DNA of 52,573 nucleotides. Source: an uncultured Porphyromonadaceae bacterium (lineage in GTDB: Bacteria; Bacteroidota; Bacteroidia; Bacteroidales; Muribaculaceae). Below, one piece after another: positions 1 to 20,348 of the stretch. A program made the translations under genes and the position numbers. The notes beneath the pieces are model-generated. The model worked only from the letters and a program-made list of their open reading frames with translations. It did not search any database and was not told the DNA's origin. Numbering within the stretch: the first letter of the stretch is position 1; the number at the start of each line of letters is the position of its first letter. The stretch is from contig CAMWLC010000016.1 in the NCBI GenBank assembly GCA_947174995.1, positions 1-52,573 of the forward strand, written 5' to 3'.

Positions 1-1709
1 AGGTGGTTTCGCTTTAATTCGACTACAAGGCATACTGACTTCACACTTAATCCTGCAACTGTAAGTACAAAAATAGTTATCTCCTTCTCTGAAAGAAATG
101 AACATTCATTTCTAAAGAGAGAAGCGATACCGTCCAAATACTTATCTACAATACTTTCGATGCCTCTTATCGATGCAGGTGACTTGAAGCGGCTGATCTC
201 AATCTTTAAATTCTTGAGAACAGCCATATCTTCATATCCTAAATCATAATATTGCCCACATAAAGTATTTAGAGTTGTCCATCTCTCCTTGAGCATTTTG
301 GCAACAGCGTTTTTTGCTTCGAGTACACGTCTGTCGGAGTCTACAAGAGATGTGGAAACCGACTCAAGTTCCTGAGTGACCTTTCCGAGTTCTTCTGTCG
401 CTAATTCAAGTTCACCCGCAAGTTTATACTTGTCTCTTTCAATGGAGGAATTTCGTATTTCAAGATTTCTCAAATTTTCCAATACCACTTGGAGTTTAGT
501 TAGCTGTAAACGGGACTTAACCCGGTGATATGCTATCAGGAGCAATATAATCAAAACTGCACAGATGCTGATTATCCAGACAATGCGTATAAGACCTGAA
601 CTACGCTTTTCAGCAGCATAACTTCGCATCTTATAACGATCCCTTTGTATCGAGGGAATGGATTGTCTCAGTTTTTCTGTCAATACTCGATTTTGTGCTT
701 GAATAACACTGTCGGAAAATTCAGATACCCCTTTGCAATCACCCATCTTCGCGCAAAGATCCTTCAACTCAAAAAAATAATTTCCCTTACGAACATCATC
801 TGTGGCGTGAGGTATTGCATCCTGCAAAATACTCCGTGCACGATCATAGTCTCCAAAATTAATAGCTAAGCATAAATCATTGATGGAGTCCTCTAATGTT
901 GCGTAAGTCCTGAAGCCAAGCTGTTTCTGCGCTTCGCGTGCCGAGTTTGCTTCATAATACCGTCTTGCTTCAAGATAAGCTCTTATCTTGACACGATAGC
1001 AATATTCAAGCAATGCGGAATCTGCGGGTTCACTCTCGGCAACCCGGTTGATACTATCCAATAGGGCGATACTTCTATCAGCTTGGTCCAGGAAACCCAA
1101 TTGTTCCGCATAATCGACGGCCGAAAACAGTTGATTCCTGTGTTTACCTGCCAATTTATATTCTTCCGATGCCTCTTTGTTAAATTTCAACGCATTGTAT
1201 GAATCGTATTCCATTCCATGTATCAAACCCATTATTTCAGCTGTTCTGGCTCTCCACAAGTGATTTTCTGTGGAATTGAAATATTCATACGCTCTGGTAG
1301 CGGGTGGTACAGCTTCGAGGTTGTCATGGCCGCCGGCAAACCGTTTGGCTTTGAAATAGTCAGCCTGTGCAATTCTGAATGAATCTGTTGTGGAAGAATA
1401 ATAATCAATTGCAATATTCTCTAATGAATCCGAATCTTCTACATATCCAAATTTGTAATTCAATCCGATTTTGATTAATGCCAACAGTGCTTTATCTCCG
1501 TCAGTCAACCTGTTATAACTCTCAAGTGATTCTACTACCACAGCAGCCGAGTCGGGATTTTCCTCTACCAGCAACTCTGCTTGCAATAATGACTGATTTA
1601 TTTTCGATCGCTTGAAATAACCATAAAACAATATTGCACCCATACATATTAGTACGAGCGAAAATATACCGATATATCTCAATTGCCGTTTGGTTACTTT
1701 ATTATCCAT
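1..1709 (-). CDS. membrane-bound TPR regulator, partial (runs off left edge)
   Basis: Reading the minus strand from the ATG at 1709 gives 569 codons without a stop, up to the window edge, so the 3' end is missing. Visible order: short cytoplasmic N terminus, TM helix about residues 11-30, a long alpha-helical TPR-like region about 40-350, a second TM helix about 373-394, a charged coiled coil about 400-465, and a C-terminal part. The C-terminal part contains the stretch LSEKEITIFVLTVAGLSVKS (539-558). It resembles the helix-turn-helix-like end of Bacteroidetes membrane TPR regulators, whose DNA-binding part would continue outside the window. The gene is clearly more A+T-rich than everything to its right. 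It lies just behind the nuo-atp terminator on the same strand. The ligand and target genes cannot be told. Confident as a real gene, moderate on function. Confidence 0.85.
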   Translation of the reverse strand, partial: MDNKVTKRQLRYIGIFSLVLICMGAILFYGYFKRSKINQSLLQAELLVEENPDSAAVVVESLESYNRLTDGDKALLALIKIGLNYKFGYVEDSDSLENIAIDYYSSTTDSFRIAQADYFKAKRFAGGHDNLEAVPPATRAYEYFNSTENHLWRARTAEIMGLIHGMEYDSYNALKFNKEASEEYKLAGKHRNQLFSAVDYAEQLGFLDQADRSIALLDSINRVAESEPADSALLEYCYRVKIRAYLEARRYYEANSAREAQKQLGFRTYATLEDSINDLCLAINFGDYDRARSILQDAIPHATDDVRKGNYFFELKDLCAKMGDCKGVSEFSDSVIQAQNRVLTEKLRQSIPSIQRDRYKMRSYAAEKRSSGLIRIVWIISICAVLIILLLIAYHRVKSRLQLTKLQVVLENLRNLEIRNSSIERDKYKLAGELELATEELGKVTQELESVSTSLVDSDRRVLEAKNAVAKMLKERWTTLNTLCGQYYDLGYEDMAVLKNLKIEISRFKSPASIRGIESIVDKYLDGIASLFRNECSFLSEKEITIFVLTVAGLSVKSVCLVVELKRNH

Positions 1710-1804
1710 GATAATAAAACTGACAATTAGCTGTCAAATTGTATGTAAGCAGATCTCAAACTGATTAGATAGTCTCAAATCAAGTTATGAAATTTAAAAA
1801 CAAA

Positions 1805-1840
1805 TGCCGGGGATATGATTTGCAAATCATATCCCCGGCA
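1805..1840 (-). terminator. perfect 36-nt palindrome, terminator of the nuo-atp operon
   Basis: Positions 1805-1822 and 1823-1840 are exact reverse complements (TGCCGGGGATATGATTTG and its complement), with no unpaired spacer in the DNA. On the minus strand the hairpin is followed by TTTGTTTTTAAATTTC, a fair U-tract. On the plus strand it is followed by CTTGTTTTTA. It sits 32 nt behind the nuoN stop, so it is the likely end of the 18-gene transcript, and it separates that transcript from the TPR regulator gene starting at 1709. Confidence 0.85.
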
Positions 1841-1872
1841 CTTGTTTTTATATTTCTAATATCAGAATAGTC

Positions 1873-3351
1873 TCACTGGAGCACGAAGGCCAGTGCGTTG
1901 GGGAACGAGGTGAGAACCGCGTTGTAGAGCCAGTCGTAGATGGGGCTTACGAGACCGAAGAACACTATTCCGAGCACACAGAGCGAAAGGGACACCTTCA
2001 TGCAGCGGCTGCTCTTGAAGCTCTCCACTTTCGGAGCGTCGGCGCTGATCCACATCGCCTTCACCACCAGCAGGTAGTAGTAGAGCGAGATGATGGTGTT
2101 GATCAGGGCTACCAGCACGAGCATGTACAGGGCCATGCTTCCCGTCGAGGTCACTGAGGTGAAGATGAGTATCTTCGAGAAGAATCCGGCGAAGGGGGGG
2201 ATACCGGCCAGCGAGAACATGGCGAGCGTCATGGCAAACGAGAGCCAGGGATTCGTGACATGGAGTCCGTTGTAGTCCGTCATGCTGATCTTGCCCGTCT
2301 TGTCCTCGATGGTGGAGATCACGGCGAAAGCGCCGAGATTGCTCACCACATATACGAAGATATAAAACATCATGGAGGTCAGGCCGAGTCCGTTGCCCGC
2401 CATCACGCCGAGCACGATGTAGCCGGCCTGGGAGACGGAGGAGAAGGCCATGAAGCGCTTCATGTTCTTCTGACGCATTGCGAAGAGGTTGCCGACGGTG
2501 ATGGTGGCGATGATGACGGCGTAGGCCATCCATTCCCATGCGTCGCTGTAAACGGCTCCGAAACACTGTACGAAGATGATGAAGAAGGCGAAAGCCGCAG
2601 CTCCCTTGGAGAGAACGCTCAGATAGGCGGTGACGGATGTGGGCGCTCCCTCATATACGTCGGCAGTCCAGAGATGGAAGGGGACGAGGGAGAGCTTGAA
2701 GCCAAGTCCGGCCATCACGAAGGCGAGGGCCACAAGGAGCAGTCCGCTCATCTCCCCCTGCGTCACGGAGAGGGCGATGTCGTTGAAGTAGAGCGAGCCT
2801 CCCGAGAAGGCGTAGACGAAGCTGAGGCCCATCAGCAGGATGGCGGAGGAGAAGACGGCGGTCAGGATATACTTGATGGCCGCTTCATGGCTCTCGTATT
2901 TGTGCTTGTTGAAGGCTACGAGAGCCGCCAGAGGGAGGGAGGCCGACTCGAGGCCGATGATGAAGAGCAGGAAGTGGCGGGCGGAGATCATGAGATACAT
3001 GCCGAAGAGGGTGACGAGCAGAAGCTCGAGGAACTCACCCTTGCGCACGGCCATCACTTCGCTCTCCACCCATTCATGGGCCTGGAGCACCACGAGGAAG
3101 AAACCTACGCTGAGGATGCACTTCATGGCGCGCGTGGCGGTGTCGGAGACATACATACCTCCGAATACGGCCTCACCGCAGGAGGGCACGATCCAGATGG
3201 CCACTGTCGCAAGCAGGGTCAGGACAGCCGTCATGGGGGTGAGGATCTTCTTGCCCGCCGCGCCGGAGAATGTATCGACCAGGAAGACCAGCAGGAAAAT
3301 CCCCAGTACTATGAGTTCGGGCAGCATTGCCCCAAATTGTGAATAGTCCAT
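1873..3351 (-). CDS. nuoN: NADH-quinone oxidoreductase subunit N
   Basis: Membrane-arm, antiporter-like subunit of complex I that takes part in proton translocation. The 492-residue product is almost entirely hydrophobic helices, as expected for a family with about 14 TM segments. The antiporter-family signature FHLWTADVYEGAPTSVTAYL is visible about one half of the way through, with a conserved lysine shortly after it (LSKGAA). It is the last gene of the nuo-atp run. The gap to nuoM is 36 nt, without promoter or terminator. The length is normal for the family and no defect is seen. Confidence 0.96.
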   Translation of the reverse strand: MDYSQFGAMLPELIVLGIFLLVFLVDTFSGAAGKKILTPMTAVLTLLATVAIWIVPSCGEAVFGGMYVSDTATRAMKCILSVGFFLVVLQAHEWVESEVMAVRKGEFLELLLVTLFGMYLMISARHFLLFIIGLESASLPLAALVAFNKHKYESHEAAIKYILTAVFSSAILLMGLSFVYAFSGGSLYFNDIALSVTQGEMSGLLLVALAFVMAGLGFKLSLVPFHLWTADVYEGAPTSVTAYLSVLSKGAAAFAFFIIFVQCFGAVYSDAWEWMAYAVIIATITVGNLFAMRQKNMKRFMAFSSVSQAGYIVLGVMAGNGLGLTSMMFYIFVYVVSNLGAFAVISTIEDKTGKISMTDYNGLHVTNPWLSFAMTLAMFSLAGIPPFAGFFSKILIFTSVTSTGSMALYMLVLVALINTIISLYYYLLVVKAMWISADAPKVESFKSSRCMKVSLSLCVLGIVFFGLVSPIYDWLYNAVLTSFPNALAFVLQ

Positions 3352-3387
3352 TGTTGAAATCAGTTGTTTCGTTGATTCAATACATTC

Positions 3388-4908
3388 TTAGAAGGCACCT
3401 CCCTGTATGGCCGCGATGATGGGGGCGAAGCTGTGCTGTATGGTTTCGCTGATCCAGTTGGGGAAGCAGCCGATTCCGGCGATGCACACTATCAGGGTGA
3501 CGGTAGAGAAGCGCTCGAACCAGTTGGCGTCCGTCAGAGTGAGGTGATGGTCGTCATAGACGGGACCGAGGAGGAGCTTGCCCACGACGCGCAGGATGTA
3601 GACCGCGGTCGTGACGATAGCGCTGCATGCGAGGATGACGAAGATACGGTGGAACGTATCGGCATCCTGGAAGGAGCCCACGAATATCGTCATCTCGGCC
3701 ACGAAGCCGGAGAGACCCGGCAGACCGAGAGAGGCGAAACCGGCTATCATGTAGCAAACGCCCAGATAGGGCATGATCTTCATGAGGCCACCCATCTGGC
3801 GGATGTCACGCGTGTGAGTGCGTCCGTATATCATACCGATGAGGGCGAAGAAGAGTGCCGTCATCAGACCGTGGGAGAGCATCTGCATGATGGCGCCGGT
3901 CATGGCGGTGGTGTTGAGCATCAGAAGGGCGAAGAGCACCATGCCGCAGTGTGACACCGACGAGTAGGCGTTGATATACTTCAGGTCGGTCTGCACGCAG
4001 GCCGAGAAGGCTCCGTAGACGATGCTGATGCCGGTGAGGATGATGAATATCCATGCCAGCTCGTTGGCTGCCTGCGGGAGCAGGTAGATGGCGATGCGGA
4101 AGCAGCCGTAGCCGCCGAGCTTCATGAGTACGCCGGCGTGGAGCATCGACACGGCGGTCGGGGCGCATGCATGACCGTCGGGGCTCCAGGTGTGGAAGGG
4201 GAACATGGCGCCGAGCACGCCGAAGCCCACGAAGGTGAAGCAGAAGAGGAGACGCTGCCAGCTCGGGTCTATCTGAGCCTGGCGGGCTATCTCGAGGATA
4301 TTCCATGTCGGCACGCCACCTTCGGGTGCGGAGTGCCAGAATATGCCGAGAAGACCCAGCATCAGGAAGGCGGAGCCACCCATGAGCATCAGGGTCAGCT
4401 TCATGGCGGAATATTCCTTGCGGCCCGTGCCCCAGAAGCCAATGAGAAGATACATCGGGATGAGGGCCACCTCATAGAACATGAACATGGTGAACATGTC
4501 TATCGAGATGAAGAAGCCGAAGACTCCGGTGGAGAGAAGCGTGAACCAGAGGAAGAAGTTCTTGGGCAGGGGGTTGATTTTCCAGGATGCGAATGTGCCG
4601 GCGAAGACGATGATGGCTGAGAGCATCAGCATCAGCACGGAGATGCCGTCCACACCCACGGCGAGGTGGATGTTGAGGGGGGCGTACCACATCCAGGAGC
4701 CCGTGTAGAGCATCTCGGCGTCAGCGCCGTTGTGGCGCAGGCAGAGGAAGTCGACACAGAGCCATACAGCCAGTGCGAGCAGCAGGGTCGAGCCCACCAC
4801 CATGACCGCGCGGATGGCGTTCATGCTGCTGTTGCGGCACAGCCCGAGTCCGGCCATCATGAGCACCGGAATGACGACAAACCAGATTAGCAAATTGTCG
4901 AATATCAT
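3388..4908 (-). CDS. nuoM: NADH-quinone oxidoreductase subunit M
   Basis: Second antiporter-like proton-pumping subunit of the complex I membrane arm, 506 residues with about 14 hydrophobic helices. The conserved helix-5 glutamate region is visible in MFMFYEVALIPMYLLIG. The family signature after it reads FPFHTWSPDGHACAPTAVSM followed by LHAGVLMKLGGYG. The gene is 33 nt from nuoL and 36 nt from nuoN and belongs to the same transcript. Length is normal for NuoM. Confidence 0.97.
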   Translation of the reverse strand: MIFDNLLIWFVVIPVLMMAGLGLCRNSSMNAIRAVMVVGSTLLLALAVWLCVDFLCLRHNGADAEMLYTGSWMWYAPLNIHLAVGVDGISVLMLMLSAIIVFAGTFASWKINPLPKNFFLWFTLLSTGVFGFFISIDMFTMFMFYEVALIPMYLLIGFWGTGRKEYSAMKLTLMLMGGSAFLMLGLLGIFWHSAPEGGVPTWNILEIARQAQIDPSWQRLLFCFTFVGFGVLGAMFPFHTWSPDGHACAPTAVSMLHAGVLMKLGGYGCFRIAIYLLPQAANELAWIFIILTGISIVYGAFSACVQTDLKYINAYSSVSHCGMVLFALLMLNTTAMTGAIMQMLSHGLMTALFFALIGMIYGRTHTRDIRQMGGLMKIMPYLGVCYMIAGFASLGLPGLSGFVAEMTIFVGSFQDADTFHRIFVILACSAIVTTAVYILRVVGKLLLGPVYDDHHLTLTDANWFERFSTVTLIVCIAGIGCFPNWISETIQHSFAPIIAAIQGGAF

Positions 4909-4941
4909 GATTTTAAGTTTTTACTGTGTTGCAACATTGGG

Positions 4942-6885
4942 TTAAACGAGACAGAGCCATGTGATGCCGGCCAGGGCCACTGCTCCGAGGAAGAACCAGA
5001 TTACGTATGCCTGGACATTGCCGCTCTGCATACCCTTGATGGAGTTGGAGGCGACGTTGGTGACCTTGGCCATGCCGTCCATTGTGGCGTCGATGACGTG
5101 GCGGTCAAACCATGCGATGCTCCGGCAGATGATGCCGAAGATGATCTTGTGGACCACGAACTGGTAGATCTCGTCCCAGTAGAAGCGACGGTGTGCAGCC
5201 TCCCAGAGGGTGGGCCAGAAGTTCTTCACCTTCGTGGGCAGATCGTTCTTGACGCGATACATCTTCGTGGCGAGCAGGATGGCGATGACGGCGACGCTCA
5301 GGGAGGTGGCGGCCACGGGGAGCTCGATGTGGATATGGTAGGGGACGCCGTCCCAAGTGACGAGTTCACCGAAGGGGATGAAGCCGGCTACGCAGCTTAC
5401 GAGGGCGAGGAAAATGAGGGGAAGCGACATCTGCCAGGGGGCGTCATGAGGCTTGTGCTCCTTGTAGTGGGGATTCTCCTCCCACCAGAAGATGAGATAG
5501 TAGAGGCGGAACATATAGAACGCCGTCAGACCGGCCACCATCGTCATCCATGCGCCCCAGAACCAATGACGGGCGAACATGGCGGCGAGCATCTCGTCTT
5601 TGGAGAAGAAGCCCGAGAAGGGCCAGATGCCGGCGATGGCGAGACAGCCGATGAGGAATGTCCAGTGGGTGATGGGCATATACTTGCGCAGGCCACCCAT
5701 GGCGGTGTAGTTGTTGGAGTGCACTGCATGGATCAGGGCGCCGGCTCCGAGGAAGAGGAGGGCCTTGAACATGGCGTGGGTGAAGAGGTGGAACATACCG
5801 GCCATGTAGCCGAGTCCGGCGTAGTGCACACCCTCGATCGGACGGTCGTAGGCCACGCCGAGCGAAACCATCATGAAGGCGATCTGCGAGATGGTGGAGA
5901 AGGCGAGCACGCGCTTGATGTCGATCTGGGCGCAAGCCACTACGGCGGCATAGAAGGCCGTGATGGCGCCGACAACGCAGATGAAGGTCATCGCGGCATC
6001 AACCACGCAGTAGACGGGGAACATACGGGCCACCAGATAGACACCGGCCACGACCATCGTGGCGGCGTGGATCAGGGCCGATACGGGCGTCGGACCCTCC
6101 ATGGCGTCGGGGAGCCAGATATGGAGAGGCATCATGGCCGATTTACCCATGCCACCGGTGAAGATGAGCACCATGGCCCAGGTCAGCACGGAGGCTCCCA
6201 TGAAGGTGGCGCCTCCGGTGGAGGTCAGCACCGCCTCGGGATTGGAGGTGAGGTTGATGAAGTTGAAGGTGTCGGTATAGTAGGAGAGAATCAGGATACC
6301 GATGAGGAAGCCCAGGTCGGCGAAACGCGTCACGATGAAGGCCTTCTTGGAGGCTGACACCGCGCTGGGGAGCTTGTAGAAGAAGCCGATGAGCAGATAG
6401 GAGGAGACACCCACGAGCTCCCAGAAGATATACATCTGGAAGATGTTGGTGGCCACTACCAGGCCGAGCATCGAGAAGGAGAAGAGGGAGAGGAAGGCGT
6501 AGTAACGCTGGAAGCCCGGCTCATGCTCCATGTATCCCCATGAATAGAGGTGCACGAGGAAGGAGATGGTGGTGATGACCACGAGCATCATGGCCGAAAT
6601 CGGATCGAGAAGGAAGCCGATGTTGACTATGAGCTTCTGGGTGAAGGCGAGCCAGGTGACGTCAAACACCTGATACTGCAGGCGCACGCCGTCGATGATG
6701 AAGTCGGGGTTGCCGCTGAAGAAGTAGGTGAAGGCCACGATATACGCCAGGGTGGCCGTGGTGCCCATGCCGAGTATGCCGAGCACGCCCGCCACCTTGC
6801 GCGACATCTTCACTCCGCCTATCCCTAAGATCAGGAACATGGCGATCGGAAGAGCCAGAATCAGAATTGGTAATGTGATGTCCAT
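4942..6885 (-). CDS. nuoL: NADH-quinone oxidoreductase subunit L
   Basis: Distal antiporter-like subunit of complex I, 647 residues, about 16 TM helices. Visible signatures: IFWELVGVSSYLLIGFFYKL (helix-5 glutamate), then MPLHIWLPDAMEGPTPVSAL with IHAATMVVAGVYL, the classic NuoL motif. The C-terminal third contains the long amphipathic lateral-helix region and a last TM helix at the very end. It lies 6 nt downstream of nuoK, which suggests translational coupling. No anomaly seen. Confidence 0.97.
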   Translation of the reverse strand: MDITLPILILALPIAMFLILGIGGVKMSRKVAGVLGILGMGTTATLAYIVAFTYFFSGNPDFIIDGVRLQYQVFDVTWLAFTQKLIVNIGFLLDPISAMMLVVITTISFLVHLYSWGYMEHEPGFQRYYAFLSLFSFSMLGLVVATNIFQMYIFWELVGVSSYLLIGFFYKLPSAVSASKKAFIVTRFADLGFLIGILILSYYTDTFNFINLTSNPEAVLTSTGGATFMGASVLTWAMVLIFTGGMGKSAMMPLHIWLPDAMEGPTPVSALIHAATMVVAGVYLVARMFPVYCVVDAAMTFICVVGAITAFYAAVVACAQIDIKRVLAFSTISQIAFMMVSLGVAYDRPIEGVHYAGLGYMAGMFHLFTHAMFKALLFLGAGALIHAVHSNNYTAMGGLRKYMPITHWTFLIGCLAIAGIWPFSGFFSKDEMLAAMFARHWFWGAWMTMVAGLTAFYMFRLYYLIFWWEENPHYKEHKPHDAPWQMSLPLIFLALVSCVAGFIPFGELVTWDGVPYHIHIELPVAATSLSVAVIAILLATKMYRVKNDLPTKVKNFWPTLWEAAHRRFYWDEIYQFVVHKIIFGIICRSIAWFDRHVIDATMDGMAKVTNVASNSIKGMQSGNVQAYVIWFFLGAVALAGITWLCLV

Positions 6886-6891
6886 GTCGTC

Positions 6892-7212
6892 TTAGTGTTT
6901 CAGTTTGTTGGTTTCGGTCACCTCGGTGCTACCGATAGAGCGGTAGATGTTGATGATGATGGCGATGGCAAGCGCTGTCTCGGCAGCCGCGATTGCGATT
7001 GCGAAGAGAGTGAATACCATCCCCTCCATAGAGCCGGGGAAAAGGAAACGGTTGAATATCACGAAATTCAGATCGGCCGAGTTGAGCATCAGCTCAAGGG
7101 AGATGAGGATGGCCACCATGTTCTTGCGGGTGATGAACCCGTATACGCCGCAGACGAACATAATCACGCTGGGCACGAGATACCATAAAATACTCAGGTC
7201 CATAGCAGTCAT
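6892..7212 (-). CDS. nuoK: NADH-quinone oxidoreductase subunit K
   Basis: Small complex I membrane subunit, 106 residues, three TM helices. The two conserved membrane glutamates of the family are visible in LISLELMLNSADLNFV and AIAAAETALAIAI. The start codon at 7212 overlaps the nuoJ stop in an ATGA arrangement, so translation is probably coupled. A start three codons later (MDLSILW) is possible. NuoK connects NuoJ and NuoN in the proton-transfer chain of the membrane arm. Confidence 0.97.
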   Translation of the reverse strand: MTAMDLSILWYLVPSVIMFVCGVYGFITRKNMVAILISLELMLNSADLNFVIFNRFLFPGSMEGMVFTLFAIAIAAAETALAIAIIINIYRSIGSTEVTETNKLKH

Positions 7213-7736
7213 TCTTTACGGGCGATGGTCACGCCGCCGATTATACATGCGAGAAGGAGCACGCTCACGGCCTCGAAGGGGAGCAGATACTGATAGCGCT
7301 CCGTGCCGGTGAAGGCATGGCCGATGTCGGTCATGGTGATCATGGCCGAGCCGCCGATGGCTTCGCTCAGGGAGATGCCGTTGATGAGGGGCATCTCGAA
7401 GAGGGCGAAGAGGAGCAGCACTGCGCCGAGCACGCTGCACAGGATGCCCGTGCGACGGCGGTGCTGGCTGAGGGGAGCGGCCTTCTCGTTGGGTTTGTGG
7501 GTCAGAAGAATCGAAAACACGAAGAGCACCATGATGCCTCCCGCATAAACCGCGATCTGCACCGCACCTAAGAACTGATAGCCGAGCTGGAAATAGAACA
7601 CGGCTGTCGATATGAGGGCAAAGAGCAGATAAGTCGCGGCACGCAGGATCTTGGTGCTGGTGACGGCCATGAAGGCGCTTGCCACCATCGCGATCGCTAC
7701 GATGAAGTAGAGGATGATGTTACCTACAGATTCCAT
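7209..7736 (-). CDS. nuoJ: NADH-quinone oxidoreductase subunit J
   Basis: Complex I membrane subunit of 175 residues with five predicted TM helices. The typical third-helix region with a conserved tyrosine and a glycine pair is seen in AVQIAVYAGGIMVLFVFSIL. It ends in an ATGA overlap with nuoK and begins 6 nt after the nuoI stop. Function: structural and conformational coupling between the quinone site and the antiporter-like subunits. Length is normal. Confidence 0.96.
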   Translation of the reverse strand: MESVGNIILYFIVAIAMVASAFMAVTSTKILRAATYLLFALISTAVFYFQLGYQFLGAVQIAVYAGGIMVLFVFSILLTHKPNEKAAPLSQHRRRTGILCSVLGAVLLLFALFEMPLINGISLSEAIGGSAMITMTDIGHAFTGTERYQYLLPFEAVSVLLLACIIGGVTIARKE

Positions 7737-7742
7737 TATGAC

Positions 7743-8249
7743 TTATTTGTTATCGTTGTTTTCAGTCGCGGGCTTGGGAGGCGCCGGTGCGTCGGGCACC
7801 TCGGGACGGTAGTTGAGCTGCTTGACGAGCTTGTCTCGCGTGAAGACGGCCTGTTCGAAATCGTTGGTGAACTCAAGGGCGTCCTGCGGGCACGTGGTGA
7901 CGCATAGCATGCAGAAGGTGCAGCTCCCCAGGTCGTACATATACTTGTCGAGCTTGCGCTTCTTCTTGCCATCGGGAAGTTCCACCATTTTGGTGGTCAG
8001 CTGGATGGTACCGTTGGGGCAGTTCATCTGGCAGATGCCGCAGCCGATGCACTTGTGGCGCCCTTCGGCGTCGTACTTCAGGGTCAGCTCCGCGCGGAAG
8101 CGGTCCGAGATGTCGAGAGTGGCGCGGTTTTCGGGATACTGCTCCGTGACCTTGGGAGTGACGAACTCCTTGCCGGTCACGGCCATGCCCGTCGCAAGAC
8201 TCTTGAGTCCCTGGCCGACCTGTGAAAAGTATTCTTTAATACTACTCAT
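7743..8249 (-). CDS. nuoI: NADH-quinone oxidoreductase subunit I, two [4Fe-4S] clusters
   Basis: Ferredoxin-like peripheral subunit that carries electrons to cluster N2 in NuoB. The 168-residue product has two complete C-x2-C-x2-C-x3-C motifs: Cys 67, 70, 73, 77 (CIGCGICQMNC) and Cys 110, 113, 116, 120 (CTFCMLCVTTC). The C terminus is proline-rich and charged. It is the first nuo gene after the embedded ATP synthase genes, 40 nt behind atpG, with no promoter-like element in the gap. In an enzyme without NuoEFG, NuoI is close to the surface where an electron donor such as ferredoxin would dock; this last point is inference. Confidence 0.96.
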   Translation of the reverse strand: MSSIKEYFSQVGQGLKSLATGMAVTGKEFVTPKVTEQYPENRATLDISDRFRAELTLKYDAEGRHKCIGCGICQMNCPNGTIQLTTKMVELPDGKKKRKLDKYMYDLGSCTFCMLCVTTCPQDALEFTNDFEQAVFTRDKLVKQLNYRPEVPDAPAPPKPATENNDNK

Positions 8250-8289
8250 AAATACAATATTGTAATTTCTTGGTTTGCTATTGTGAGTG

Positions 8290-9183
8290 TCATCGCTCCA
8301 CCTGTCCGCCCAGGATGTCGAGCAGTTCGGTAGTAATGCCCTGCTGGCGCAGCTTGTTGTATTCGAGTTGGAGGCCTTCGAGGAGCTTCTTGGCGTTGTC
8401 GTTGGCGCTCTGCATGGCCATGACGCGGGCGGCCATCTCGGAGGCGCGGTTCTCGATGGTGATCTCCTGCATGAGGGAGAGCACGTACATGGGGAGCACC
8501 TCGTTGAAGATGCGGTTGGGGTCAGGCTCGAAGATGTAGAGCTTGTCGGCGCCGCTTCCCTGTTCTCCCGCCTCGGCCATGATGGCTTTGTGGCTCACGG
8601 GATAGAGCTGGTCGACGGTCAGACGCTGCCGGCTGATGGACTGGAACTGCATGTAGACCACCTTCACCAGGTCGAGGTCTCCGCTTATGAACTTGCCGCG
8701 CAGCGCGGAGGTGAACTCCGTGACGCGGTCTCCCTCCATCTTGGAGCTGACGCCCTCGAAACGCTCGATATTGATTCCGTTTCCCTGAATCTTCTCCACG
8801 GCCTTAGCTATCTTCTTGCCGACAGGATAGACCGTGATGGCCACATCCTTGCCGTAAGCATCGCGTACGGCGTTAATCTCGACGAGAAACTGCTTGAAGA
8901 TATTCATGTTGTAAGCGCCGCAAAGACCGTCGTCACTGCCGAAGACCACCATTCCTACATGATGCACCTCACGCTCCTCGATCAGGGGTGAGGAGAATGT
9001 GGTGCCTGATTGCAGTATGTGGCCCATGATGGAGCGTATCTGGTTCTTGTAGGGCAATAGTCTGCGGAGCGCCTGCTCGAATTTGTGGACCTTCGCAGAC
9101 GAAATCATCTTCATGGCGCCGGTGATCTTCTCACTCGACGACACGGAGCCGATTCGTGTCTTTAATTCCCTCAGGGTGGCCAT
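8290..9183 (-). CDS. atpG: F1 ATP synthase subunit gamma
   Basis: Central rotor shaft of F1. The 297-residue product starts with MATLRELKTRIGSVSSSEKI, the typical N-terminal coiled-coil helix (contains KIT/AMKMI), and ends with the C-terminal helix ITIENRASEMAARVMAMQSA and a run of Asn, Lys and Leu. The middle Rossmann-like domain includes FGSDDGLCGAYNMN. The gene is separated from atpA by 144 nt holding a strong hairpin, the largest gap within the atp set. It is the last atp gene before nuoI. Confidence 0.97.
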   Translation of the reverse strand: MATLRELKTRIGSVSSSEKITGAMKMISSAKVHKFEQALRRLLPYKNQIRSIMGHILQSGTTFSSPLIEEREVHHVGMVVFGSDDGLCGAYNMNIFKQFLVEINAVRDAYGKDVAITVYPVGKKIAKAVEKIQGNGINIERFEGVSSKMEGDRVTEFTSALRGKFISGDLDLVKVVYMQFQSISRQRLTVDQLYPVSHKAIMAEAGEQGSGADKLYIFEPDPNRIFNEVLPMYVLSLMQEITIENRASEMAARVMAMQSANDNAKKLLEGLQLEYNKLRQQGITTELLDILGGQVER

Positions 9184-9225
9184 AAGTCAGTTGTTTCTGT
9201 GATGTTTTGTTGTTGTTAAATTCGC

Positions 9226-9255
9226 GGACGGACCGTCGGTCAGGACGGTCCGTCC
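9226..9255 (-). other. strong hairpin in the atpA-atpG gap
   Basis: Positions 9226-9237 (GGACGGACCGTC) and 9244-9255 (its exact complement) form a 12-bp stem with a 6-nt loop. The G+C-rich stretch beside it (about 9260-9295) can also fold. On the minus strand the hairpin is followed by GCGAATTTAACAACAACAAA, with no U-tract, so it does not look like an intrinsic terminator. It probably acts in the mRNA, for example as a stability or processing element between alpha and gamma. Confidence 0.6.
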
Positions 9256-9327
9256 ATTCATGGCCGCCGGCCGGCCACGGATGGCCCCCCGGCGGATATT
9301 TGCGTATATGCTTGCGAATGTGCGGCC

Positions 9328-10908
<1,581 letters not shown>

Positions 10909-10909
10909 T

Positions 10910-11455
10910 TCAGTTGCTTCTTAAGAGTTTTAGACTTAGTTGTTCTAGTTCGTTCCTCACCGAGGCGTCGAGGCGGTAGCCGTCGACGTCCACCACGAAG
11001 CCGCCGATAAGAGCGGGGTCCACCTTCTGGCGCCACTCCAGCTTGAGAGCCGGATAGGCCTTGGCCACGATGTCCCTGATCTTGTCGGTCTCGGCCTCGC
11101 CGAGAGGGGCTGCGGTCACGAGGGTGGCCTCCGCGATACCGTGCGCACGGCGGTAGATGTCGCGGTAAGCCAGGGCCATCAGACGCGCATACTCCTCACG
11201 GTGATGATCGAGCACGAGCCTCACGAAGCCACGGTAGTCATCCTCCGCCTTGTCTCCGGCAGCAGTCTCGAGGAGCCGGGCCTTGTCGTCGCGCCCCACG
11301 AAGGGGTTGGCGAGCACCTTGGCCAGCTCGGGATTGCGGTCGAACGCATCGGCTACCTCCCGCATCTCTTCATACACGGAGTCGGTGGTGCCCTTCTCCT
11401 CTGTCAGCTTATAAAGCGCCTTTGCATAGCGCTGGGGAATCAGACCGTTGCTCAT
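10910..11455 (-). CDS. atpH: F1 ATP synthase subunit delta
   Basis: Peripheral-stalk subunit that joins F1 to the b subunits, 181 residues. The N-terminal six-helix domain begins with [18 protein letters not shown], the family's conserved start. The C-terminal part ends in [20 protein letters not shown] followed by [13 protein letters not shown], the usual ending. Its start is 4 nt from the atpF stop, in the standard order F-H-A. Confidence 0.96.
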
Positions 11456-11459
11456 CGGT

Positions 11460-11954
11460 TCAGTTCTTCTCTATTTCGTCCAACATTTTGTTGACAAGCT
11501 CCTGCTGCGACTTGTCGTCCTGAAGCTGCTTGCGCACCATCTTCTCGGCAATGTCAAGCGAGAACTTGCTCACTTCGTTTCTGAACTGAAGTTCAGCTTC
11601 CTTGCGTGACTGTTCTATCGACACTTTGGCAGCCTCCATGACCTTCGATGCCTCGGCGGAGGCCTCTTTCTTGGCCTCCTCGATGATCTGGGACTTCATC
11701 TTGGCTGCATCACGCAACATCTCAGCCTGACGCTCCCGGGCTTCCTCGACATATTTCTGGGCCTCGGCGCGGGCGTTGTCAAGCTGCTCCTTGGCCTCGC
11801 GGGCGTATTCGACTCCCTTGTCGATGGTGTCGGCCCTGGAGTCCATGCTCTTCAGAATCACGGGCCATCCCCACTTCGCAAGCACGAGGAAGAGGAGAAT
11901 GAAGGCCACGAACATCCAGAAGACCAGGCCAAAATCGGGCGTGAATAATTCCAT
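11460..11954 (-). CDS. atpF: Fo ATP synthase subunit b
   Basis: Peripheral-stalk subunit of Fo, 164 residues. One N-terminal TM helix (about residues 8-28: FGLVFWMFVAFILLFLVLAK) is followed by a long charged, alanine-rich helix rich in E, K, A, Q and R that would form the dimeric right-handed coiled coil, ending in LVNKMLDEIEKN. Only one b gene is present, so a homodimeric stalk is expected. It starts 26 nt behind the atpE stop. Confidence 0.96.
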   Translation of the reverse strand: MELFTPDFGLVFWMFVAFILLFLVLAKWGWPVILKSMDSRADTIDKGVEYAREAKEQLDNARAEAQKYVEEARERQAEMLRDAAKMKSQIIEEAKKEASAEASKVMEAAKVSIEQSRKEAELQFRNEVSKFSLDIAEKMVRKQLQDDKSQQELVNKMLDEIEKN

Positions 11955-11980
11955 TTGTCAGAATTTTGCGGGTGTCGAAA

Positions 11981-12268
<288 letters not shown>

Positions 12269-13558
12269 TTATGCTGCTTTGTGCTCCGAGGCGTCGTGGT
12301 GCTCATGCTCGGCCACGGCCATCGAGATGAAGATGGTGGCCAGCATGGTGAAGACGTATGCCTGGATGAAGCTCACCAGGACGTCGAGCGCGAGCATGAA
12401 GATGGAGAAGAGCACCGAGATGACCACCGAGCCTCCGGTAGCCGCCACTCCGAACGCCGCGAAGATGAAAATCAGCAGCGTCAGGGTGATGACAATCATG
12501 TGGCCGCCCATCATGTTGGCGAAGAGACGCACGCACAGGGCGGCGGGCTTGGTGAACATTCCGAAGATCTCGATCATCTGCATGATGGGGAGGGGACACT
12601 TCAGCCAGATGGGGACATCGGGCCAGAGAATCTCCTTCCAGTACTCCTTGTTGCCGTTGATGTTGGTGACTATGAACACCAGCACGGCAAGCACGAGCGT
12701 CACGGCGATGTTGCCCGTAAGGTTGGCGCCGCCGGGGAAGATGACGATAAGGCCGAGAAGGTTCATCACGAGGATGAAGAAGAAGCAGGTCAGCAGGAAG
12801 GGGGCGAACTTCGGGGCCTTGGGGCCTAAAGTGTTCTTGATCACGCCCTCATAAATGAAGTTGACGAGCATCTCCATGAAGCCCATCCCCTTGCGGGGGG
12901 CCTTCATGCCTTTGCGGCGGTAGTATCTCACCAGGCTCATGACCATGGCCGTCACGACGACGGCGGCTATGAGCAGGGCGAGGACATTCTTGGTGATGGA
13001 GAAGTCGAGGGGACGGTATTCCTTGAAATACTTTCCGGTCGTGGCGTCATAGGCATATCCGGAGATTGCGACGCTATGCTCCGCCTTCTTGGGGTCAGCC
13101 TTGGTCTCGGCGATGGCGCGGGCGTGAAGCTCGGCCTGCTCGGCGTCGGTCAGGGGCCAGACCTGTACCACCTTGCCGGCGTTGTCGCTGACATGGGGAA
13201 GCATGAAGTGGTATTCCTTGCCGTTCTTCTCAGCGGTATAGATGGCCTGCGAGAGATATTCCGACTTCTTGCCGTCGGCCATATCCTCCTCCACCGTCAC
13301 GTAAGTGAGCTTAGAGGAGGAGAAGCAGAACCATGCGCCATCCTGGGCGCGCACAATCACCGGAAGGGGAATACGGTAGACATGGCTGAATGGAACTTCC
13401 CAGCCGTAGCCATCGCCGAGGTGGTGGAAGATGATTTCCTTCACGTCCACACCCTCCTTCTCGGAGTCACCGTGTCCGGCGGCGCGCGCCGGAGCGGCAA
13501 ACCCGATCAGCAGGGCCGCCAACAGCATGAGTATTGAAAATCTTTTGTTCATCGCCAT
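12269..13558 (-). CDS. atpB: Fo ATP synthase subunit a with long N-terminal periplasmic part
   Basis: Stator subunit that forms the proton half-channels next to the c ring. The product has 429 residues, against about 270 in Escherichia coli. The extra length is N-terminal: a signal-peptide-like segment (residues 1-27, ending PARAAG) and a hydrophilic region to about 185, before the first family TM helix at about 190-208. The essential arginine is Arg344 in AALCVRLFANMMGGHM. The start at 13558 (MAMNKRF) lies 5 nt behind the atpC stop; an upstream ATG at 13576 would overlap atpC. No atpI gene lies in front. Confidence 0.94.
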   Translation of the reverse strand: MAMNKRFSILMLLAALLIGFAAPARAAGHGDSEKEGVDVKEIIFHHLGDGYGWEVPFSHVYRIPLPVIVRAQDGAWFCFSSSKLTYVTVEEDMADGKKSEYLSQAIYTAEKNGKEYHFMLPHVSDNAGKVVQVWPLTDAEQAELHARAIAETKADPKKAEHSVAISGYAYDATTGKYFKEYRPLDFSITKNVLALLIAAVVVTAMVMSLVRYYRRKGMKAPRKGMGFMEMLVNFIYEGVIKNTLGPKAPKFAPFLLTCFFFILVMNLLGLIVIFPGGANLTGNIAVTLVLAVLVFIVTNINGNKEYWKEILWPDVPIWLKCPLPIMQMIEIFGMFTKPAALCVRLFANMMGGHMIVITLTLLIFIFAAFGVAATGGSVVISVLFSIFMLALDVLVSFIQAYVFTMLATIFISMAVAEHEHHDASEHKAA

Positions 13559-13563
13559 TCCGG

Positions 13564-13800
13564 TTAATAGATGCACACCGACACCACGTTGTTGTCAACA
13601 TCGACAAGACCGCCGTTGATATGATAGCTGTGTTCCTTGTCTCCCTCCTTGCGGAAGCGGATGTCTCCCGGCACGAGCACCGAGATAATCGAGGCATGGT
13701 TGCGCAGCACCGTGAAACGGCCCATCTCGCCGGGGAGGGTCACCATGTCGGCGTCCCCTTTGTAGAGCACCTCGTGAGAGGATATGATTTCGAGTGTCAT
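13564..13800 (-). CDS. atpC: F1 ATP synthase subunit epsilon, short form
   Basis: Central-stalk subunit, only 78 residues. It contains just the N-terminal beta-sandwich domain: MTLEIISSHEVLYKGDADMV, the conserved GRFTVLRNHA loop and the GGLVDVDNNVVSV strand. The C-terminal two-helix domain, which inhibits ATP hydrolysis in longer homologues (about 130-140 residues), is absent. The gene is intact, with normal spacing to atpD (31 nt) and atpB, so the shortness is a lineage trait rather than a truncation. Confidence 0.95.
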   Translation of the reverse strand: MTLEIISSHEVLYKGDADMVTLPGEMGRFTVLRNHASIISVLVPGDIRFRKEGDKEHSYHINGGLVDVDNNVVSVCIY

Positions 13801-13831
13801 CTGTGGTTGATTCTTGGGGGATGGATAGCTA

Positions 13832-15358
<1,527 letters not shown>

Positions 15359-15397
15359 TTAAATATTCTCGATTCTAAGGATTTGCTCTTCGCTTCA

Positions 15398-16474
15398 TCA
15401 GAAGTGCCAGCCCAGGGCCACACAGACGGCCATCAGCACAAGGTTGAGCAGGGAGAGGGGCATGAGGTATTTCCACTCGAAGGCAAGCATCTGGTCGATA
15501 CGAACGCGCGGGAAGGTCCACTTGAACCAGATGATGACAAACGAGATGAAGAAGGCCTTGGCCAGGAACCACACGGGACCGGGGATATAGTTCATGATCT
15601 CATTGAATCCATCCCAGCCGGGGACATGGAAAGGCATCCAGCCGCCGAGGAACATCAGGGAGGCGATGCCGGAGACGATGAAGAGGTTGAGGTATTCGGC
15701 GAGGTAGAAGAAGCCGAAGTGGATGCCGGAATACTCGGTGTGATAACCGGCCACCAGCTCATGCTCAGCCTCGGGAAGGTCGAAGGGGCCGCGGTTGGTC
15801 TCGGCCGTGGCTGCCACGATGTAGATGAGGAAGGCGATGATGGCGGGGATGTGTCCGCGGAAGAGGAACCATGCGGACTGCTGCTCGGCCACGAGGTCGG
15901 TGATGTTCATGGTGCCGGCGAAGACCACTATGGAAATCAGGGCGAGACCGAGGGAGATCTCGTAGGAGATCATCTGGGCGCCGCTTCGCATGGCTCCGAT
16001 GAGGGTGTACTTGTTGTTGGAGGCCCAGCCTGCGAGCAGGATACCGAGCACGCCCACCGAGGAGACGGCGAGGATGAAGAAGATACCGATATTGTAGTCG
16101 ATGATCTGAAGGCCGTTGCCCCAGGGGAGACAGGCCAGCATCACCACGGAGGAGGTGATTATTATGTAGGGGGCGAGCTTGAAGAGGAAGCGGTCAGTGC
16201 CTTTCAGGGATATGAGCTCCTTGATGAGGATCTTGAACATATCAGCGAAGACCTGAAGCAGTCCCCAGGGACCCACGCGCATCGGGCCCAGACGACACTG
16301 GAACCATGCGCAGAGCTTGCGTTCATAGAGGATGTAGAAGAGGGCGAGCACCGTGTAGGCGAGTAGTACGCATACACCGATGATGACGCACTCCACAAGC
16401 ACAGCGGCCCATGAGGGCAGGAAGCCCATGAGCAGGTCGTTGACCCAATTTGTGACTATGCTGAAATCAAACAT
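15398..16474 (-). CDS. nuoH: NADH-quinone oxidoreductase subunit H
   Basis: Membrane subunit that forms the quinone chamber with NuoB and NuoD, 358 residues, about eight TM helices. The conserved loops are visible: GPMRVGPWGLLQVFADMFKI near the N terminus and GPFDLPEAEHELVAGYHTEY with SGIHFGFFYLAEY, the acidic quinone-site loop. It is the last gene of the first nuo half. The next gene downstream is atpD, not nuoI. Confidence 0.97.
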   Translation of the reverse strand: MFDFSIVTNWVNDLLMGFLPSWAAVLVECVIIGVCVLLAYTVLALFYILYERKLCAWFQCRLGPMRVGPWGLLQVFADMFKILIKELISLKGTDRFLFKLAPYIIITSSVVMLACLPWGNGLQIIDYNIGIFFILAVSSVGVLGILLAGWASNNKYTLIGAMRSGAQMISYEISLGLALISIVVFAGTMNITDLVAEQQSAWFLFRGHIPAIIAFLIYIVAATAETNRGPFDLPEAEHELVAGYHTEYSGIHFGFFYLAEYLNLFIVSGIASLMFLGGWMPFHVPGWDGFNEIMNYIPGPVWFLAKAFFISFVIIWFKWTFPRVRIDQMLAFEWKYLMPLSLLNLVLMAVCVALGWHF

Positions 16475-16526
16475 GACTGTTAATTAGATTTGGTTTTCCT
16501 GTGAAAGTAAGTCTTGGGACCCGCTG

Positions 16527-18158
16527 TCATCTGTCGATGTCGGGAATCACGAAGTCGAGGGCCGCGCCGATGGTGATGAGGTCGGCGATCATGTTGCCCC
16601 GGCAGCAGAGATCCATCACGCCCACGAGGTTGAAGCAGGGGCTCTGGAAGTGCACGCGGTAGGGGGTCTTGCCGCCGTCAGACTCGATGTAGACGCCGAA
16701 TGTGCCGCGGCTCGCCTCGACCTGCTGATACCAGCGTCCCACGGGGAGCTTGATGATCTTGGGCACCTGCGCGCGGATCGGGCCTTCGGGGATGCGGTCC
16801 ACAAGCTGCTCGAGAATCTTGACGCTCTCCTCTATCTCGCGCATACGCACCATGTAGCGGGCGTAGGAGTCGCAGCCATATTCGAGCACCTCCTCGAACT
16901 TCACTTGTGGATAGGCACCGTAGGGGTGCTTCTTGCGGCAGTCGCAACTCCAGCCGGAACCGCGTCCGCTGGGACCGGTGATGCAGTAGTTGACGGCATC
17001 CTCGAGGGGGAGCATACCCACTTTCTTGAGGCGGTTCATGGCGATGATGTTGCCGGAGAACACCTTATGGTATTCCTTGATTCTCTCGGGCATGATGCGG
17101 ATAAGCTCCTTGACATCCTTCACGAAGTCGGGATGCAGGTCGGCTATGACGCCGCCGATGACGTTATAGTTCATCGACATGCGGGCTCCGCAGGTCTTCT
17201 CGAAGATGTCGAGTACCTGCTCGCGCTCGCGGAATCCGTAGAAGAAGGCGGTGGTGGCGCCCAGGTCCATCGCAGTGCAACCGAAGGCAAGGAGATGAGA
17301 GGATATACGCATCAGCTCGTCCATCATGGCGCGTATCACCACGGCACGCTCGGGCACCTCAAGGCCCATGGCCTTCTCGATGCACATACAGAGGCACTCG
17401 CGGTTCTGATGGGCGGACATATAGTCCATGCGGTCAGTGAAGTGGAGTATCTGGGGATAGCCGAGTTCCTCGCAGAGCTTCTCGATGCCGCGGTGGATAT
17501 ATCCGGAAACGACGTCGACCTTGGTGACGATCTCGCCGTCAACGGCGCAGCGGAAACGCATCACGCCGTGGGTGGAGGGGTGCTGCGGGCCGACGTTGAC
17601 CACGTAGTCGCCGGGGGCGAACACCTTGCCGGGCACGCAGGTCACCTTTCCCTTCTCATCCTCGACGTAGGAGCGGGTGTCATCCTCGTTTTTCTCGTCA
17701 TCCTTGGGGATGGGATTGAGCTTGGGGTCGGCGTCATAGTCCTTGCGCAGGGGGAAGCCCTTCCAGTCGTTGCGCAGGAACATGCGGCGCATGTCGGGAT
17801 GGTTGATAAACTTGATGCCGAAGAAGTCGTAGACCTCGCGCTCCTGAAAGAGAGCCACCTTCCAGAGGCTGCTCACGGAGTGGATCATGGGGTCCTTGCG
17901 GTCCGGGGCCTCCACCTTGACGCAGACAACGTCCCAGTCATGGGTGGTGCTGGTGAGATAGTACACCACTCCGTAAGCCTCCTTCCAGTCCATGCCGACA
18001 ACGGCGGTCAGCACGTCGAAATTCAGCTCGCGGTCCTCCTTCATGGCCTTGGCCAGGGGGAACCAGTCCTTGTCGGCCACGTTGATCTGGAGGTATTCAC
18101 CCTCCTCGAAGGTCGCCGAGGGACAGATGGAGAGAATTTTTTCTTTTATGTCGTTCAT
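16527..18158 (-). CDS. nuoCD: NADH-quinone oxidoreductase fused subunits C and D
   Basis: Fusion protein of 543 residues. The NuoC (30-kDa) domain is at about 1-145, with the signature EREVYDFFGIKFINHPDMRR and then GFPLRKDYD. A charged linker follows at about 146-182. The NuoD (49-kDa) domain runs from 183 to the end, with QHPSTHG at 192-198, part of the quinone site, and a C-terminal DFVIPDIDR. The fusion is known in several lineages, including Bacteroidetes and enterobacteria. Gap to nuoB is 34 nt and to nuoH 52 nt. Confidence 0.97.
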   Translation of the reverse strand: MNDIKEKILSICPSATFEEGEYLQINVADKDWFPLAKAMKEDRELNFDVLTAVVGMDWKEAYGVVYYLTSTTHDWDVVCVKVEAPDRKDPMIHSVSSLWKVALFQEREVYDFFGIKFINHPDMRRMFLRNDWKGFPLRKDYDADPKLNPIPKDDEKNEDDTRSYVEDEKGKVTCVPGKVFAPGDYVVNVGPQHPSTHGVMRFRCAVDGEIVTKVDVVSGYIHRGIEKLCEELGYPQILHFTDRMDYMSAHQNRECLCMCIEKAMGLEVPERAVVIRAMMDELMRISSHLLAFGCTAMDLGATTAFFYGFREREQVLDIFEKTCGARMSMNYNVIGGVIADLHPDFVKDVKELIRIMPERIKEYHKVFSGNIIAMNRLKKVGMLPLEDAVNYCITGPSGRGSGWSCDCRKKHPYGAYPQVKFEEVLEYGCDSYARYMVRMREIEESVKILEQLVDRIPEGPIRAQVPKIIKLPVGRWYQQVEASRGTFGVYIESDGGKTPYRVHFQSPCFNLVGVMDLCCRGNMIADLITIGAALDFVIPDIDR

Positions 18159-18192
18159 TGCGAAAATGTTACGATTCTGGGTTTTACAATAG

Positions 18193-18804
18193 TCAGTCTA
18201 TCTGTCCTCTCTCCTCGGGGTGCTGGCGGAAAAACTCCTCCACTTTCTCCTGGCGGTTGACACCGCCGAAGAATTTCTGCACCTTAATTTTGCGCTGGAG
18301 CTGCATGAGGCCGTAGAAGAAGGCTTCAGGACGCGGGGGGCATCCGGGGATGTAGACGTCAACGGGGAGAATCTGGTCCACGCCGTTCACGACACAGTAT
18401 GATTTCTTGAAGGGGCCGCCCGACACCGCGCATCCGCCGCAGGCGATAACATACTTGGGCTCGGCGAGCTGCTCGTAGAGACGCACGAGCACCGGGGCCA
18501 TGCGGTGGACGATGGTGCCCTGCACCATGATGTAGTCTGCCTGGCGCGGGGAGTTGCGGGCCACCTCGAAACCGAAACGGGCCATGTCGTAGCGTGCGGC
18601 TCCGAGGCTCATAAACTCGATGGCGCAGCAGCTCGTGCCGAAGGTGAGGGGCCAGAGCGAGTTGGATATGCCCCAGTTGATGAGCTGGTCGAGCTTGCCC
18701 ACGGCCACGTTGGCGCCGGTGGCGTTGAGTTCCTCGACGAGCTTGTCGATATATTCGTTGTCCTTGAAGTCCTCGCGCTTCATCGACTTGATATTCACTT
18801 CCAT
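18193..18804 (-). CDS. nuoB: NADH-quinone oxidoreductase subunit B, cluster N2
   Basis: Carries the terminal [4Fe-4S] cluster N2 that reduces quinone. With the start at 18804 the product has 203 residues. The cluster ligands Cys59, Cys60 (TSCCAIEFM), Cys125 ([12 protein letters not shown]) and Cys155 ([10 protein letters not shown]) match the family spacing. The frame is open upstream to 19023, but that extension overlaps nuoA and has no NuoB character, so I use the internal ATG, which overlaps the end of nuoA by 10 nt. Confidence 0.96.
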
Positions 18805-19166
18805 TGCAGCGCTCCTTTCCGCCAGGCGTATGCCAAGCCTAAAATGAGAATAAACATGAAGATGGCGATGCAGAGAAGACCCTGCACTCCAAGACCGCGC
18901 GTCACGACTGCCCAGGGATAGAGGAAGACCGTCTCGACGTCGAAGATCAGGAAGAGAATCGCAAAGATGTAGTATCCCGCCTTGAACTGTATCATCGACT
19001 CTCCACGGGTCGGTATACCACATTCATACGGCTCCGATTTCTTCACTGAATACGATTTCGGTGAAATCAGCCTGGCTATCAGCAGGGCGGCAAACACCAG
19101 CGTGATGCCCGTCAGGGTCGCGGTGATGGCAAGTTCGCCATTGCTTATTTCCATCAATAAATTCAT
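18795..19166 (-). CDS. nuoA: NADH-quinone oxidoreductase subunit A
   Basis: Small complex I membrane subunit, 123 residues, three TM helices. The conserved hydrophilic loop [20 protein letters not shown] is present, followed by the acidic helix [20 protein letters not shown]. It is the first gene of the 18-gene nuo-atp run. A consensus promoter sits about 75-105 nt upstream. The last codons overlap the nuoB start. Confidence 0.97.
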
Positions 19167-19240
19167 ATAATCGCTTTATAATAAATTAGTTAGTCTAACA
19201 GGTCAGCGCAATTCCCCCGAAAGTATGCAGGAATTTGCCG

Positions 19241-19272
19241 CAAAGATACTTAAAAAATCTTAATAACCCAAA
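19241..19272 (-). promoter_or_regulatory. Bacteroidetes-type promoter of the nuo-atp operon
   Basis: On the minus strand TTTG (19272-19269), 20 nt, then TATCTTTG (19248-19241) match the Bacteroidetes primary-sigma consensus TTTG-N19-21-TAnnTTTG at every defined base. Transcription would start near 19235, leaving a leader of about 65-70 nt before nuoA. This is the best promoter match I found in the window. Confidence 0.8.
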
Positions 19273-19298
19273 TTATTTATCATGCTTTAAGACAGCAT

Positions 19299-19328
19299 CT
19301 ACCCGGGACGTTTTTTCATCCCGGGTAG
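19299..19328 (-). terminator. hairpin behind the receptor-lipoprotein genes
   Basis: CTACCCGGGA (19299-19308) pairs perfectly with TCCCGGGTAG (19319-19328) around a 10-nt loop. It lies between the lipoprotein stop (19399) and the nuoA promoter, so it probably ends the receptor-lipoprotein transcript. The T-run is in the loop and no clear U-tract follows on the minus strand, so the call is moderate. Confidence 0.5.
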
Positions 19329-19398
19329 ACATCGCGCCATATTCATGAGGCGCATTGTTTCGGTCTGGCTATGATACCGGCTATGTGTCGCGGGCGCA

Positions 19399-20319: not shown

Positions 20320-20348
20320 GATAGGTATATGTTTGTTTTCAGTTGTAT

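Follow-up and report, generated by a model that had tools for sequence, protein, structure and literature searches.

The genes for a complete F1Fo ATP synthase lie inside the complex I locus in the DNA analysed here, a window of 52,573 nucleotides (contig CAMWLC010000016.1) from an uncultured Bacteroidales bacterium of the family Muribaculaceae (family code f1 in our surveys), whose genome assembly comprises 2,451,308 bases in 82 contigs. Eighteen minus-strand genes at 1873-19166 run in the order nuoA-B-CD-H, atpD-C-B-E-F-H-A-G, nuoI-J-K-L-M-N, as a preliminary description of the sequence had claimed, and every one of them gave a Pfam match. We put the probability at roughly 0.82 that this layout reflects a single ancestral nesting which was then kept, with the 18 genes probably forming one messenger from a promoter before nuoA to a hairpin past nuoN. 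In this explanation an F1Fo operon atpDCBEFHAG, contiguous beforehand, would have come between nuoH and nuoI once, in an ancestor that Muribaculaceae share with six or more further family-level groups of Bacteroidales. One messenger would thus encode both a complex I of 11 subunits, lacking NuoEFG, and the ATP synthase that draws on the gradient of this complex, and the two would be regulated jointly.

Gene content of the nested locus

The features of the locus are as follows.

19241..19272, minus strand: Bacteroidetes-type promoter match (TTTG-N20-TATCTTTG) upstream of nuoA; motif scan, same motif in 45 of 86 nested loci
18795..19166, minus strand: nuoA; PF00507
18193..18804, minus strand: nuoB; PF01058; likely start 18804 or 18783, longest frame to 19023
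16527..18158, minus strand: nuoCD, C and D fused; PF00329 and PF00346
15398..16474, minus strand: nuoH; PF00146
15335..15397, minus strand: nuoH-atpD junction, 63 nt; gene coordinates
13832..15334, minus strand: atpD (F1 beta); PF00006, TIGR01039
13564..13800, minus strand: atpC (F1 epsilon, N-terminal domain alone, 78 aa); PF02823, TIGR01216
12269..13576, minus strand: atpB (Fo a); PF00119
11981..12223, minus strand: atpE (Fo c); PF00137
11460..11954, minus strand: atpF (Fo b); PF00430
10910..11455, minus strand: atpH (F1 delta); PF00213
9328..10908, minus strand: atpA (F1 alpha); PF00006 and PF00306
8290..9183, minus strand: atpG (F1 gamma); PF00231
8250..8289, minus strand: atpG-nuoI junction, 40 nt; gene coordinates
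7743..8249, minus strand: nuoI; 4Fe-4S Pfam families; TIGR01971 at 105.9 bits, below the cut-off of 113.05
7209..7736, minus strand: nuoJ; PF00499
6892..7212, minus strand: nuoK; PF00420
4942..6885, minus strand: nuoL; PF00361 and PF00662
3388..4908, minus strand: nuoM; PF00361; named from its position between nuoL and nuoN
1873..3351, minus strand: nuoN; PF00361; named from its position
1799..1846, minus strand: terminator-like hairpin 3' of nuoN, with a perfect 36-nt palindrome at 1805-1840

The gene coordinates also reproduce the junction gaps of 63 and 40 nt given in the preliminary description. In its longest form the nuoB frame (18193-19023) probably extends too far upstream; because homology starts only at about residue 76, the likely start is the ATG at 18804 or 18783. 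The AtpB frame of 435 aa carries about 200 residues ahead of its conserved domain, and its longest form overlaps atpC.

The 11-subunit set of complex I (nuoA, B, C, D, H, I, J, K, L, M and N) is complete in the locus, and NuoE, NuoF and NuoG are not encoded there. The NuoF domain PF10589 gave no match in the genome (92% complete), compared with matches in 7 of 14 control genomes; NuoE and NuoG were searched at the locus only. Since the locus has no genes for NuoEFG and a search of the genome gave no NuoF-type domain, this complex I is probably not driven by NADH and would receive electrons from another donor.

The ATP synthase block encodes all eight subunits (alpha, beta, gamma, delta, epsilon, a, b and c). 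Both strong PF00006 matches in the genome are at the locus, and a weaker third is on another contig; a second F-type alpha/beta pair was therefore not seen. The c subunit reads IEGVALF at the carboxylate. In Na+-coupled enzymes the c subunit has Gln and Ser beside the carboxylate as Na+ ligands. The c subunit of the window presumably lacks these ligands, and the coupling ion is therefore likely to be H+.

Distribution among Muribaculaceae and other Bacteroidales

The preliminary description had proposed comparing gene order across Muribaculaceae and other Bacteroidales; the nesting turned out to be general in the family and present in six further family codes. Searches of 149 genomes from the family detected NuoH in 147 and AtpG in 146. 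With the NuoH-AtpG distance as a proxy for gene order, both genes shared a contig and strand in 124 of the 149, separated by 5846-6877 bp (median 6018.5). Of the remaining 25, 21 showed nuoH-atpD, atpG-nuoI or both when the gene order was read. The other four were uninformative: the contigs of G045 and G047 end at most 140 nt past nuoH, and G075 and G116 fell outside the order reading. None of the family stretches read contradicts nesting. Of 80 named loci, 67 carried both junctions, 11 carried nuoH-atpD and ended before nuoI, and two ended right after nuoH.

In the order, NuoH-like matches were obtained in 151 of 247 genomes. One locus each was taken from 60 genomes representing 54 family codes, additional NuoH copies of the same genomes being left out. 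Six loci were nested (one each in f22, f28, f60, f68, f88 and f109), 53 had nuoH followed by nuoI, and one (L143) ended at nuoH. Of eight additional genomes examined from these six codes, seven were nested whole and one, G336, was split over two contigs with one junction on each, which brings the genomes with nesting outside Muribaculaceae to 14. The nuoH-nuoI gap in ten measured non-nested loci was 1-33 nt. In two f30 genomes (L104, L149; L187, L188) nuoL appears to be the last gene of the nuo unit, with no nuoM or nuoN match in at least 10 kb beyond it, and in a 1.2 Mb genome (G238; L120, L189) the unit seems to stop at nuoK.

A survey of 148 genomes of the phylum found NuoH in 131 and AtpG in all 148, and both positions could be compared in 123, including the genome of the window. 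Among the matches listed, NuoH and AtpG were within 30 kb of each other in two of the 123, namely the window's own genome and G414. The latter does not look like an independent nesting, because its NuoH (40%) and NuoI (31%) matches are weak and plus-strand frames lie between atpG and nuoH.

We also examined 20 atp loci of non-nested genomes. Two of them (f106 and f9) had the contiguous order D-C-B-E-F-H-A-G, five were interrupted after C by some 0.4-0.5 kb, ten had no D and C nearby, two had D or D-C after G, and one was cut by a contig end. In family code f106 (56 genomes), NuoH was matched in 26, one of them weakly, and AtpG in 46; where f106 genomes lack a strong NuoH match, their AtpG scores higher and is apparently a different one. 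Among the 23 f106 genomes in which both were compared, nine had them on one contig, at a nuo-atp distance of 18-64 kb in five (G253, G549, G552, G554 and G585, all unnested and in differing orientations) and at least 106 kb in the other four. G552 and G554 carry the two units in tandem and in opposite order, atp coming first in one genome and nuo in the other. The presence of nuo and atp in only part of the f106 genomes shows that gains, losses or transfers happen within the order.

The nesting itself is already known for this family. Ormerod et al. 2016 (PMC4936053) reported, for 30 genomes of 'Ca. Homeothermaceae' (S24-7), ATP synthase genes inside a complex I locus with 11 of the 14 subunits and NuoEFG missing. 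According to the NCBI taxonomy, 'Ca. Homeothermaceae' is Muribaculaceae, and the window is like that locus in subunit set and placement of atp, and probably in family. Among the named NuoH records nearest to that of the window, some carry the title Muribaculaceae and others Porphyromonadaceae, Bacteroidales, Bacteroides or Prevotella. The passages of the 2016 paper available to us mention neither a gene order nor a promoter nor any occurrence beyond the family, all of which the present analysis provides. It was the only report of nesting in the literature found, with subscription journals mostly outside the search; within the same literature there was no prior report of the spread to six further codes, the single clade or the promoter comparison.

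Related systems are described for Bacteroides. The B. fragilis nuo operon (BF638R_0850-0841; PMC7002350, in the portion available) likewise has 11 subunits in one operon without NuoEFG, and its authors infer an unknown electron donor. Unlike the window it has no atp genes inside, since its ten consecutive tags leave no room for eight of them, which agrees with the earlier statement that nuo stands apart from atp in model Bacteroides. A minor atp transcription unit with the order beta-epsilon-a-c-b-delta-alpha-gamma was described in Bacteroides and Prevotella (PMC5709465), and this is the internal order of the nested block. In the text of that paper at hand neither 'nuo' nor 'NADH dehydrogenase' occurs, and nesting is not discussed.

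Candidate promoter and terminator sequences

We scanned the window for TTTG-N19-21-TAnnTTTG, which we take to be the Bacteroidetes promoter consensus. The full-consensus promoter match noted earlier before nuoA was confirmed at 19272-19241 on the minus strand, and it is the only full match on either strand of the window. In 100 shuffles the mean number of full matches was 0.04, four shuffles having one match. The 200 nt upstream of each gene in the nested loci were then surveyed, with expected counts from base shuffles. The strict motif stood upstream of nuoA in 45 of 86 loci and upstream of none of the other 17 genes (atpD 0/94, nuoI 0/82). A loose form was found upstream of nuoA in 57 of 86 loci, where 1.85 were expected.

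At the 3' end, the perfect palindrome reported after nuoN is present at 1805-1840 and is followed by T-rich sequence. Among 23 other nested loci, 13 had a clean hairpin 3' of nuoN under a strict rule, which was applied without a shuffled control. The claim that neither junction of the window has a promoter box or terminator held for terminators, as no minus-strand terminator-like site was found at nuoH-atpD or atpG-nuoI; it did not hold entirely for promoters, as one sigma-70-like site, a weak one, extends across the atpG-nuoI gap. The junctions of nested loci are short, with a median of 52 nt (17-143) for nuoH-atpD and 44.5 nt (6-247) for atpG-nuoI. A single messenger is the simplest reading of these sequences, and the motif evidence makes it likely that the 18 genes are one co-transcribed unit, as had been proposed.

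Beyond the locus, a frame at 1-1708 (minus strand), 3' of the nuoN terminator, is open from 1708 to the window edge. Directly upstream of the nuo promoter, a 320-residue frame at 19399-20361 (minus strand), for which no Pfam or NCBIfam family was matched, overlaps the end of a TonB-dependent receptor frame. An alpha-2-macroglobulin-like protein of 1948 residues is encoded at 29371-35217 (minus strand). An Rfam scan of the window at gathering scores found no family.

Origin, alternatives and consequences

Gene trees were built from joined proteins with FastTree and midpoint-rooted (Nuo, 68 loci and 3026 columns; Atp, 37 loci and 2196 columns). The 18 nested loci formed one clade in the Nuo tree with local support of 1.0, adjoining f106, f24, f59 and f9. 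The identical 18 loci formed one clade in the Atp tree with support of 0.997, adjoining f106, and the inner branching of the clade broadly matches between the trees. One clade on both trees points to one ancestral insertion. Together with the 53 of 60 order loci in which nuoI directly follows nuoH, this supports the earlier proposal that the atp unit was placed between these genes, probably ready-made and in a single event.

Several observations weigh against a single nesting read as one messenger. The loose motif also occurred upstream of atpD in 3 of 94 loci (1.15 expected), atpA in 2 of 92 (0.5) and nuoH in 1 of 94 (0.3), although it was absent upstream of the remaining genes, and in 29 of 86 nested loci it was not found upstream of nuoA even in this form. 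The sigma-70-like site mentioned above (9 of 12 positions) lies at 8287-8259; a sigma-70-type scan of 1500-19500 gave 9 such sites against 8.9 expected. In the Atp tree f59 and f9 fall away from the nested clade, unlike in the Nuo tree, and both trees are built from the Nuo and Atp proteins themselves, without an independent species marker.

The atp genes might be nested in place only, with an internal promoter of a kind outside those scanned, an output largely independent of nuo and a layout that is a frozen accident. Cells need ATP synthase where nuo may be low, and B. fragilis nuo was reported to be poorly expressed in anaerobic rich medium (PMC7002350, in the portion available); moreover, the scans used simple consensus motifs, and there are the three loose matches before atpD. 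The lack of any strict match before atpD or nuoI and the short junctions speak against such a promoter, and we regard it as improbable. A little less probable still is that nesting occurred several times, or that the whole nested locus spread between families by transfer. The reliance on gene trees without a species tree and the patchy presence of nuo and atp in f106 would allow for this, but the same 18 loci group together on both trees, and the branching inside this clade broadly agrees. An assembly error joining two loci, which the preliminary description had named as able to overturn the nesting, can be dismissed almost completely. The genome of the window is in 82 contigs, and that of a relative, G104, is broken inside atpF; however, the identical order recurs in many separate assemblies, and the G104 break is read as scaffold gaps because each of its two contigs carries exactly 100 N there.

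We therefore retain a single ancestral nesting, kept and probably transcribed as one messenger. In one genome, H5, both complexes were reported to be jointly absent (PMC4936053, in the passages available), which we count in its favour. A more specific version, which we consider less likely than not, has the super-operon arising a single time in an ancestor of seven or more family codes, perhaps out of an arrangement with atp near nuo. Selection for joint dosage of the pump and the synthase would then have maintained it, so that in these gut bacteria loss of complex I would entail loss of the ATP synthase. The short nuo-atp distances in f106 give a starting point for studying how an operon of this kind is assembled. 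In a group of bacteria that is dominant in the mammalian gut, what appears to be a single operon encodes two large respiratory machines. Should both indeed be on one transcript, nuo and atp would be inseparable in regulation or disruption, which matters for mutants and for the interpretation of Muribaculaceae transcriptomes.

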